Shown here piece after piece: positions 51,334 to 55,323 of a stretch of DNA of 64,000 nt. Origin of the DNA: Candidatus Peribacteria bacterium (GTDB lineage: Bacteria; Patescibacteriota; Gracilibacteria; Peribacterales; Peribacteraceae); the NCBI GenBank assembly GCA_016866875.1, contig VGKY01000003.1, forward strand, positions 32,708-96,707, read 5' to 3'. Numbering within the stretch: the stretch's first letter is position 1; each line of letters begins with the position of its first letter. The translations under genes were made by a program, and so were the position numbers. Below the pieces are notes generated by a model, which was not told the DNA's origin, did not search any database, and saw only the letters and a program-made list of their open reading frames with translations.

Positions 51334-51801
51334 TTATGCATTCTTCCGTGGTAATTCCTTCATAATCTTCCCCCCCCACTTCTTCACCCTCTCCTCCTGC
51401 CCATAGGGTTCGTTGACGATGAGGAGCGCATCACCGAGGATCTTCCCTCCGTGATCGAGGACGAACCTGCGCATGTGTTCCCCCGCTCTGCAGGTGTAGA
51501 AATACCGGTCATCCCCAAGCGCGACGATGGCGACGGGCTTGCCGGCAAGATTCACTCCCTTCGCGCGATCTTGGAGAAGATCGTGCATGTGCGGGTTCAT
51601 CTGCCCCTCGATACCACCGGTGTTCCATGTACCCGAAGCAAGGATGAGAAGATCTTCTCTGAGTAGCTCCTCTGGCTTCGTCGCTTCCGCACGTTGCAAT
51701 GTGCATCCGACGTTCTGGCCACGAAGGAACTCCTCAAGAACTCTCACCACATACTCGGTGTGGCCGCTCGTGGAGGCGTAGATGATCTGAATCGTAGACA
51801 C
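51334..51801 (-). CDS. Flavodoxin
   Basis: IQIIYASTSGHTEYVVRVLEEFL, LLILASGTWNTGGIEGQMNPHMHDLLQD, VAIVALGDDRYFYTCRAGEHM. Confidence 0.88.
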   Translation of the reverse strand: MSTIQIIYASTSGHTEYVVRVLEEFLRGQNVGCTLQRAEATKPEELLREDLLILASGTWNTGGIEGQMNPHMHDLLQDRAKGVNLAGKPVAIVALGDDRYFYTCRAGEHMRRFVLDHGGKILGDALLIVNEPYGQEERVKKWGGKIMKELPRKNA

Positions 51802-51958
51802 ACATGCATGGTACCCAAAAACACGTCACAATGGATAAAACCAGTATTTGCTAAATAATTATTAATATTTTATAATAATATTTTAGCGAGAAGTCCCCAA
51901 AAGTACAGCTTCCGACACCCGACGACGGACTCCGCGACGAAGAGCTTGTAGAATCTGA

Positions 51959-52138
51959 ATGTCCGAACGTTGTGATCAACAGGTCACCCATGCGCTTTTT
52001 GTGGCACAGCTCTCAAATATCGCAGAGAAAATCTGGCACTGGAGTATGTGGAAGAAGGCGCCCAAACCTGACCCAAAAATCCTTGCAGTGACACAGGAGT
52101 TCACACTTCCCTCTCCAGACGACAAGCCGAGCAAGTAA
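51959..52138 (+). CDS. Small ORF, 59 aa, unknown (below ORF-track cutoff)
   Basis: MSERCDQQVTHALFVAQLSNIAEKIWHWSMWKKAPKPDPKILAVTQEFTLPSPDDKPSK. Confidence 0.4.
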   Translation: MSERCDQQVTHALFVAQLSNIAEKIWHWSMWKKAPKPDPKILAVTQEFTLPSPDDKPSK

Positions 52139-52145
52139 CATCCAT

Positions 52146-52250
52146 TCCGTGAACATCCACTCCATCGCCATCGTCGGATCGAGCTCTAGCCCCCACAAAG
52201 TAGGGCACATGATTGTTAAAAATCTCCTCACGCAGGGATTTCGGGGTGCA
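52146..52250 (+). pseudogene. Truncated 5' copy of the ADP-forming acyl-CoA synthetase gene
   Basis: VNIHSIAIVGSSSSPHKVGHMIVKNLLTQGFRG vs MQNIHSIAIVGASSSPHKVGHMIFKNLLTQGFPG at 53218. Confidence 0.9.
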
Positions 52251-53124
52251 GTGGCTCCTCCAATTCCGCTACATTTTGAACACTATTCCCAAAACCAACG
52301 CCATCCCGAGACATCACGCTAGGATCGTAATGAACGACAAAGGACCCCTGACGGCAGGTAATAGGGTTAAGCGAACCTCGGTCAAAAACAAAAAGCTTAC
52401 TGCCTTTGAGGAAAACCATGATCCCCCCTCGAGATAGGCCTGGATCACCCCGTACTTCACCTACCACGGGAACTTTGATTGTTTGGCCCAATGCCCTGTT
52501 GAAAAGTCTTGAAAACTCCAAGGGCCTTCCGAGGATGATCCATTCCCCGTCGCTCAAGAGATGCGTGCGACCTTCAATTTCTATTTGCCCACCCTGTTCA
52601 TGCGGAGAATACACAATCACTGTCCTACTACACTGAATGAGAGCGGATTGAGTCGCATCCAAGGCCACACGATCGTTCTCATTTTGAAAAGTGACGTTTA
52701 CGACATTTTTTCCTGCTGGGTAGCTAGTTCTGGTGAGTAGGAGCGCGTCACCCCCGAAAGTGGTCATTGACATACCCGGCTGCTTTGGGAGAGCAATCAA
52801 TTTCTCACACACGTTGTACAGTGGAGAGCCCGGCTGAGAGAGATCCTCCGGATGAGTAGGCAACACAGCCTCTCCTTTTCGCATTCGCTGCAGCAAGGCT
52901 TCAAGAACTCTGTATTCGTTATAGGGGAGTGTGTTAATGAGTCGTGCGAGCTCTGCTACTGGTAGCATTTCCGGTGACCCATCACCCACTTTTATGGACA
53001 TTGCGCCTGCAACGGCATTCTGCGTGCGGCCGAGAATCGTACTTAGGTGGTCTTCCCCTGGCACGATCGCGAAAGCTTGGGGTTCGGGAGTGCTTGGGTT
53101 GTTGTCTGAGGAATTGAGAACCAT
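52228..53124 (-). CDS. FHA-domain-like protein of unknown function
   Basis: WIILGRPLEF...VPVVGEVRGDPGLSRGGIMVFLKGSKLFVFDRGSLNPI resembles FHA; C-terminus encoded within the truncated copy. Confidence 0.6.
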   Translation of the reverse strand: MVLNSSDNNPSTPEPQAFAIVPGEDHLSTILGRTQNAVAGAMSIKVGDGSPEMLPVAELARLINTLPYNEYRVLEALLQRMRKGEAVLPTHPEDLSQPGSPLYNVCEKLIALPKQPGMSMTTFGGDALLLTRTSYPAGKNVVNVTFQNENDRVALDATQSALIQCSRTVIVYSPHEQGGQIEIEGRTHLLSDGEWIILGRPLEFSRLFNRALGQTIKVPVVGEVRGDPGLSRGGIMVFLKGSKLFVFDRGSLNPITCRQGSFVVHYDPSVMSRDGVGFGNSVQNVAELEEPLHPEIPA

Positions 53125-53217
53125 TCATATATTTTATGATAATATTTAATATTTAGCAATAACGCTAAGAAATTGTTGTTTGCATCATTATATGTTATAG
53201 TAATTACTCTTCTTACA

Positions 53218-55323
53218 ATGCAAAACATCCACTCCATCGCCATCGTCGGCGCAAGCTCCAGCCCCCACAAAGTAGGGCACATGATTTTCAAAAATCTCCT
53301 GACGCAGGGATTTCCGGGTGATGTGTACGCGGTGAATACGAAGGGGGAAGAGATCCTCGGCAAGAAATCCTACGCGACTATCGCTGAGATCCCCAAGGCA
53401 GTAGATATGGCGGTGATCGTCACGCCGGCTCCCACGGTTCCCGGCATTCTGGAGGAATGCATCGCCAAAGACGTACAAACCGTCATCATCATCAGCGCGG
53501 GATTTAGTGAAACGCACACAGAGGAAGGAAAACGATTGGAGGAGCAACTGTGTTCAAAACTGAAAGCTCACGACTCCACGATGCGTGTCATCGGGCCCAA
53601 CTGCCTCGGCATTCTCATTCCCCGCCTCGGTCTCAATGCCTCGTTTGCCAAAGATCTTCCCAAGCCGGGGTCGATTGCCCTCATTAGCCAATCGGGTGCA
53701 ATGGCCGTGGCACTCATCGATCAGTCGATCAGTCTCGACATCGGCTACGCGAGTATCTGGAGTATCGGCAACAAGACGTTTCTCGACGAGTGCGACTACT
53801 TGGCCATGTGCGAAGCGGATCCCAACACCACGGTCATCGGACTCTATCTGGAACAGATCAACGATGGGCGGAAGTTCATGGAAGCCGCGCGACGCATTGG
53901 AAAGACGAAGCCGGTCGTCCTGCTAAAATCCGGAGTATCCGAGGCAGGAAAGAAAGCCGCTGCGTCCCACACAGGAGCGCTTGCGGGATCCAGCGCCGCC
54001 ATCGATGCAGCGTGTGCACAAGCGGGCATTCATCGCGCGGCGACTGCCGAGGAATTTCTCATGCTCCTGCAGATACTTTCGACGCAACCGGCACTGAGAA
54101 CTCGAAACGTCGCCATCATTACCAATGCCGGCGGCCCGGGCATCCTCGCAAGCGATGCAGCGGAAGCGGCAGGGCTGCACTTGCCACCTCTGCAGTCGTC
54201 GATCGGCGACAGACTAAAGAGTTCTCTCCCCTCTTCGGCAAGCATAGGGAATCCCATCGACGTCATCGGTGATGCCTTAAGTGATCGCTACGTTGCGGCA
54301 CTCGACGCCGTAGGCGACGATCCGGGCATCGACGGCGTGGTGGTGCTCCTCACCCCACAAGTCATGACTCCCGTGCGTGAAGTCGCTCTGGCGATCACGG
54401 ATTTTCACAAGCGTTTTCCCCTCATGCCCGTCACGGTCTCGTTCATGGGCGGCGCAAGCGTTGAAGACGGGAAAACCATCCTGAGAGCTGGAGGAATTCC
54501 CTCATTGGAAAACCCCGAAGACGCGGTGCGGGCGATGGCGGCTCTCCTTCCCGCCAAAGCGTCTGCGACGCGATCCAAAGAACGCATCGCTTCTCGAAGA
54601 CAGAAACAGGCGCACGCTATCCTCGATGGAAAATCCGGATTGCTCTCCGAAGACGATGCAGGGAGGCTTCTCAGACTGTATCAGCTCTCCGTTCCCGCCG
54701 GACGTGTGGCCGACACCGCAGAGGAAGCCGTACAGTTCGCCGACAGTATCGGGTATCCCGTCATCGCCAAAATTAGCGCACCACAGATCCTCCATAAGAC
54801 GGATGTCGGGGGCGTGAAGGGTAACCTGCAGAACGCTGACGACGTCCGCACGGCCTTTGAGGTCATCAGAACCAATGTTGCGGCATCCCGAACTTCCGTG
54901 CTCCATTCACCGCCTTCCGAAACTTCAGCGAAGGCGGAGCCATGTGCCATTCTCATTCAGCAGCACCTTCCCCCCGGCAACGAATTCATCGTGGGAGGCT
55001 TGCAGGATCCTGCGTTCGGACCAATGGTCATGGTGGGACTGGGTGGCATCTATACGGAGCTCTTCCGGGATACGACTTTTCGTATCGCTCCGATGGATGA
55101 GCATGAGGCATACCGTATGCTGACGGAGCTCAAAAGCTGGAAGCTGCTTCTGGGAATGAGGGGAAAAGCCCGAAGCGACATCGACGCGCTTGCGCGAGCC
55201 ATTGTCGCAGTGTCGCAGATGCTTCATGAATGCCCGCAGATCACCGAGCTCGATTGCAATCCGGTGCTCGTGTCTGACGAAGGCATCTCTGTGCTGGACG
55301 CCAAAGTTGTTGTGCAGCCTTAG
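53218..55323 (+). CDS. Acetate/acyl-CoA ligase (ADP-forming), fused alpha-beta
   Basis: SIAIVGASSSPHKVGHMIFKNLLTQGFPGDVYAVN, PNCLGILIPRLGLNASFA, SQSGAMAVALID, SHTGALAGSSAAIDAACAQAGI, ATP-grasp half. Confidence 0.94.
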   Translation: MQNIHSIAIVGASSSPHKVGHMIFKNLLTQGFPGDVYAVNTKGEEILGKKSYATIAEIPKAVDMAVIVTPAPTVPGILEECIAKDVQTVIIISAGFSETHTEEGKRLEEQLCSKLKAHDSTMRVIGPNCLGILIPRLGLNASFAKDLPKPGSIALISQSGAMAVALIDQSISLDIGYASIWSIGNKTFLDECDYLAMCEADPNTTVIGLYLEQINDGRKFMEAARRIGKTKPVVLLKSGVSEAGKKAAASHTGALAGSSAAIDAACAQAGIHRAATAEEFLMLLQILSTQPALRTRNVAIITNAGGPGILASDAAEAAGLHLPPLQSSIGDRLKSSLPSSASIGNPIDVIGDALSDRYVAALDAVGDDPGIDGVVVLLTPQVMTPVREVALAITDFHKRFPLMPVTVSFMGGASVEDGKTILRAGGIPSLENPEDAVRAMAALLPAKASATRSKERIASRRQKQAHAILDGKSGLLSEDDAGRLLRLYQLSVPAGRVADTAEEAVQFADSIGYPVIAKISAPQILHKTDVGGVKGNLQNADDVRTAFEVIRTNVAASRTSVLHSPPSETSAKAEPCAILIQQHLPPGNEFIVGGLQDPAFGPMVMVGLGGIYTELFRDTTFRIAPMDEHEAYRMLTELKSWKLLLGMRGKARSDIDALARAIVAVSQMLHECPQITELDCNPVLVSDEGISVLDAKVVVQP

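Follow-up and report, generated by a model that had tools for sequence, protein, structure and literature searches.

Introduction

Integration by single crossover or by homology-facilitated illegitimate recombination (HFIR) in E. coli and in transformable bacteria has been described as combining a homology anchor on one side, an illegitimate joint on the other and a truncated or duplicated piece of resident sequence that is left as a scar (PMC3240628, PMC5361080). In an HFIR experiment in E. coli, most products were single-crossover duplications of the homologous end, which measured 109-950 bp in the sequenced clones (PMC3240628), and the same recombination idea has been proposed for the displacement of T6SS effector genes in Vibrio cholerae (PMC5361080). 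ComEC is encoded in 86% of CPR genomes (PMC6744442). Here we analysed a stretch of 64,000 nucleotides (the window) from a Candidatus Peribacteria genome (G000; 1.12 Mb, 98% complete, 36 contigs, 1.19% contamination), which lies within a 96.7-kb contig and in which the 5' end of an acyl-CoA synthetase gene is duplicated on the far side of a gene resembling those for FHA domain proteins. The genome encodes ComEC. As reconstructed here, the locus shares the one-sided homology, the illegitimate joint and the resident scar with the described cases; it differs from them in that the event is reconstructed from one genome without a donor sequence and in that no more than the short 5' end of a gene was duplicated.

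Results

The intact gene for ADP-forming acyl-CoA synthetase (ACS) occupies 53218..55323 on the forward strand and encodes 701 aa with matches to PF13549, PF13607 and PF13380. Its first codons (53224-53325, copy 2) are repeated directly at 52152-52253 over 102 nt with 90% identity and a spacing of 1072. The original prediction had described a repeat of about 100 bp of the ACS start followed by divergence, and this was borne out with sharp limits, the 100 nt upstream and the 100 nt downstream scoring no better than shuffled sequence. The similarity starts directly after the start codon and breaks off at about codon 34, a pattern expected of two alleles with common coding sequence and different leaders. 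The truncated copy 1 (52149..52253, forward strand) consists of a GTG start and codons 2-35; while its intact neighbour carries CoA-binding, Succ_CoA_lig and ATP-grasp_5 domains, copy 1 holds the first ~35 codons only, and a functional enzyme is impossible. Of the eight differences in the core of the repeat, five affect the third position of a codon. Some variants of copy 1, including the R codon of G003, also occur in relatives but not in copy 2. These small numbers suggest that the copies are two once-functional, diverged alleles, which describes them better than one decaying copy; the divergence of copy 1 amounts to 10 differences, too short for a firm test. ACS orthologues were present in 35 of 59 relatives, and the duplication in the window was the only one among the ACS loci examined.

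On its left side, the region is bordered by a flavodoxin gene (51334..51801, reverse strand; Pfam PF00258, E=3.6e-15) that is syntenic with ACS across the family. We compared the gap between the two genes (51802-53217 in the window) in 22 family genomes, namely that of the window and 21 relatives (four of the same genus, G001-G004, and 17 others). The two genes were divergently oriented around a gap of 96-4002 bp, the content of which differed in nearly all 22 slots and included, according to labels read from translations, small ORFs of no known kind, a dehydrogenase (G017), large membrane proteins and a 1000-aa repeat protein (G031). G001-G004 have flavodoxin, a different slot gene and a single ACS, and the FHA-like gene is absent; one slot gene is common to G002 and G004, and G003 carries a shorter relative of it. 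The comparison with an empty site that had been asked for at the outset thus yielded a site free of the FHA-like gene in these four genomes. Since these closest relatives are only ~70-74% identical to the window genome in ACS, they show the pre-insertion site at a distance and not as it would look in a near-identical strain.

The corresponding part of the window contains a slot ORF that is a remnant or an orphan (51885..52138, forward strand), made up of a startless open frame at 51885-52088 and, in another frame, the 59-aa ORF that had been noted previously (51959-52138). The open frame, SEKSPKVQLPTPDDGLRDEELVES..., begins 8 nt after a TATAAT, has no start codon and overlaps the 59-aa ORF. 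It looks like a decayed slot gene. No homologue of the slot ORF was detected, and neither the 59-aa ORF nor the frameshifted ORF showed significant homology to the slot genes of relatives. The suggestion that the 59-aa ORF is a cassette partner of the FHA-like gene did not hold, because it sits on the native side of the slot, where relatives have other slot genes.

The arrangement around copy 1 resembles that of an ordinary ACS start in the genus. The TAA of the 59-aa ORF is followed after 10 nt by the GTG of copy 1, and in G003 the TAA of the slot gene is followed after 10 nt by the ACS ATG. Three residues lead from the start to the SIA motif in copy 1, G002, G003 and G004, and four in G001 and in the intact gene, which opens with ATGCAA. 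In the 24 nt before the start, copy 1 matches G003 at 13 of 24 positions (P=0.0025 as the best of 9 comparisons, ~0.02 corrected), and copy 2 has no such match. From the start register, the three residues before SIA and the upstream match to G003, we infer that ACS most likely once began at copy 1 and that the insert probably brought the intact gene its present leader and start. A 15-bp near repeat, AACATCCATTCC/AACATCCACTCC, is present at 52137-52166 around the end of the 59-aa ORF and the start of copy 1. Slippage was our first idea of its origin; after the comparison with G003, an ordinary spacer is equally likely.

The FHA-like gene (52228..53124, reverse strand; 298 aa) lies between the two copies, and its final six codons and its stop come in antisense from copy 1, where a C at 52229 (G in the intact gene) creates the TGA. 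The C-terminal residues EEPLHPEIPA had been attributed to the duplicated copy as a whole; this is correct for HPEIPA and the stop, and EEPL comes from the flank. Homologues were found in 8 of the 353 genomes of the class that were searched, with 20-31% identity to the window protein. By gene names read from translations, they occupy five contexts: the ACS slot (G000, G014), gnd (G021, G204), nusA-pilB (G287, G288), near uvrC (G229) and near nrdR (G023). A functional link between the FHA-like gene and ACS was rejected on account of these varying neighbourhoods; the FHA-like gene in the ACS slot is best seen as cargo. The homologue in G014 has the same slot and the same orientation as the window gene, and the sequences from G000 and G014 pair in the tree (92/87). 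A single-protein query detected no homologue in GTDB contigs, and collections of phages, plasmids and viral contigs contained none. No convincing match came from the defence, phage or NCBI families, and Rfam gave no match.

The window family resembles the FHA domain (PF00498) in a C-terminal beta-rich domain with a GR...SR...FDxGSxN signature. It differs from the domain in that its matches are below the Pfam cut-off and in that the histidine of SxxH and the glycine of NG are replaced in the window protein, which keeps G199 R200, S231 and N253 of the core. The window protein itself had no match to PF00498, and the homologue from G288 reached 17.7 bits (E=0.0049) against a cut-off of 20.7. The predicted structure (mean pLDDT 70) has a helical N-terminal half and an all-beta or beta-rich C-terminal half, and Foldseek gave no significant match and no PDB fold match with either a 3-row model (pLDDT 50) or the 8-row model (pLDDT 70). 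We therefore call the protein distantly FHA-like on the GR...SR...DxGSxN pattern and the sub-threshold PF00498 match of one homologue, and take its family to be rare and fast-evolving. At Pfam level, the genome had no Ser/Thr kinase, and FHA matches were absent from it and from 11 relatives; given these results, together with the sub-threshold PF00498 score and the Foldseek outcome, a role in reading phosphothreonine is putative.

Another homologue is also located next to a damaged gene. In G021 (L040:10298-11538) it has gnd on one side and, on the other, what is left of a P-type ATPase (102 aa), and in the congeners G226 and G227 (L107 and L109 compared) gnd directly adjoins an intact P-type ATPase of 824-827 aa. 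We read the G021 locus as a second insertion scar, in which the homologue has replaced the 5' part of the ATPase gene by insertion with deletion.

The original prediction had placed AT-rich inverted repeats at the two ends of a small cassette. The repeats do exist (51848-51877 and 53130-53159, 77% over 30 nt), with a score of 39 that is a marginal excess over shuffled AT-rich sequence (best of 1000 shuffles, 38), but their part as cassette boundaries was not upheld: both arms lie on sigma70-type promoter matches, from which they deviate by at most 1 nt. The left arm corresponds to a predicted slot-gene promoter (51848..51876, forward strand; TTGCTA-17-TATAAT) that precedes the slot ORF remnant, and the right arm to a predicted promoter of the FHA-like gene (53131..53159, reverse strand; TTGCTA-17-TAAAAT) located 6 nt before its ATG. 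A weak candidate promoter for ACS, TTGTTG-17-TATAGT (53173..53201, forward strand), was read by eye and missed by promoter scans. The slot gene of G004 and G002 has TTGCCT-17-TATAAT-8-ATG at the matching position without the FHA insertion, and the FHA-like gene of G014 is preceded by TTGATA-17-TATACT-9-ATG. A search of the genome for other copies of the arms or of the element, which had been proposed as a check, returned none. Element ends were rejected as an identity for the arms on the grounds of the promoter matches, the same design in uninserted relatives and the lack of further copies; the inverted pair is instead best described as two predicted, convergent, near-leaderless sigma70-type promoters. 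The case shows that, within an AT-rich gap, the promoters of two convergent genes can be mistaken for the ends of an element; the misleading inverted-repeat signal is corrected here. Such promoters may not be confined to this locus. Among 422 long ORFs, some of them spurious, from the window and loci L035-L047, L062-L065 and L074-L092, TATAAT-like hexamers numbered 45 at 4-9 nt before the ATG and 6-15 in each other 6-nt bin, and Shine-Dalgarno-like motifs had no comparable enrichment in the same set. This pile-up makes near-leaderless promoters look general in the clade, and near-leaderless transcription seems to be widespread in the Peribacteria family.

Discussion

The locus has two marks of an insertion scar: the foreign segment is flanked by homologous resident sequence that has been partly duplicated (102 nt, 90%), and the uninserted site occurs in relatives with ~70-74% ACS identity. 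The earlier proposal of an insertion at the ACS 5' end that duplicated this end and supplied a new start is supported by G001-G004, which have a single ACS and no FHA-like gene. We favour, as a reasonably probable account, the entry of the FHA-like gene, its promoter region and an ACS 5' end by single-crossover recombination or HFIR, probably from a related strain. The incoming segment would have carried the FHA-like gene, the divergent promoter region and the ACS 5' end, its source being most likely a related strain with the FHA-like gene directly upstream of ACS. It may have paired with the resident ACS and been joined illegitimately near codon 34, either through circularisation and a single crossover or through HFIR, with a homologous exchange on one side and an illegitimate joint on the other. 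The resident ACS 5' end would have been left behind as the scar that is copy 1, and the insertion would have detached ACS from the slot-gene operon, providing the intact gene with its new leader and start codon. Donor, direction of transfer and joint are all points that we infer; no donor with the FHA-ACS arrangement was found in the class genomes or GTDB contigs, and the donor is therefore hypothetical.

The chief rival has the FHA-like gene ancestral in the slot, shared with G014 and lost elsewhere, and the ACS 5' end copied later to its 3' side by template switching. It owes this rank to G014, where a homologue occupies this slot and reads in the same direction, and to the pairing of the two sequences in the tree, and rapid turnover of slot genes would also suit it. 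We nevertheless regard it as rather unlikely: many losses would be needed to explain why the gene is missing from all four congeners and from the greater part of the family, and a randomly copied piece would hardly sit 10 nt past the stop of the slot ORF in the native start register. That the block joins two strain haplotypes through chimeric assembly of a metagenome bin seems very unlikely. The contig number and contamination of the assembly and the two ACS start alleles side by side would agree with a chimera, but the junction at 52250 leads into unique sequence that completes the FHA ORF in frame, and the block is interior to its contig.

The regeneration of the ACS 5' end and the homologues in several unrelated slots might suggest a mobile cassette or integrative element that is specialised in targeting and restoring this end and is bounded by the AT-rich inverted repeats. 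Such an element is highly improbable given that the block encodes the FHA-like and small ORFs only, with no recombinase, integrase or transposase, that its supposed ends are promoters facing each other and have no other copies in the genome, that G021 has a deletion and no duplication, and that phage, plasmid and viral collections gave no matches. We give hardly any credence to a decayed tandem ACS paralogue of which the 5' end is the sole survivor. Copy 1 does begin at a start codon and is 90% identical to the intact gene, but the similarity breaks sharply at about codon 34 and nothing else between the copies derives from ACS. A second ACS is absent from the slot in every relative, which also leaves the disrupted paralogue considered in the original prediction unsupported.

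On the preferred reading of a recombinational insertion, the ACS-slot arrangement is a real and well-defined but ordinary recombination scar of a known kind, and its cargo gene is lineage-restricted and poorly characterised. We are doubtful of a broader view in which the Peribacteria-specific FHA-like family is a nomadic gene that enters intergenic slots, brings along a near-leaderless divergent promoter of its own, harms or rewires its neighbours (ACS; the P-type ATPase in G021) and moves between relatives by transformation without mobility genes. The locus illustrates how slot genes may be swapped via homologous flanks among small, uncultured CPR bacteria, giving a core enzyme gene a different promoter in the process.

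During the survey of ACS homologues, we also observed one in another genome of the same class (G057:C7:35127-37193) that is broken by 17 TGA codons and one TAG codon, which is consistent with a lineage that reads TGA as an amino acid.
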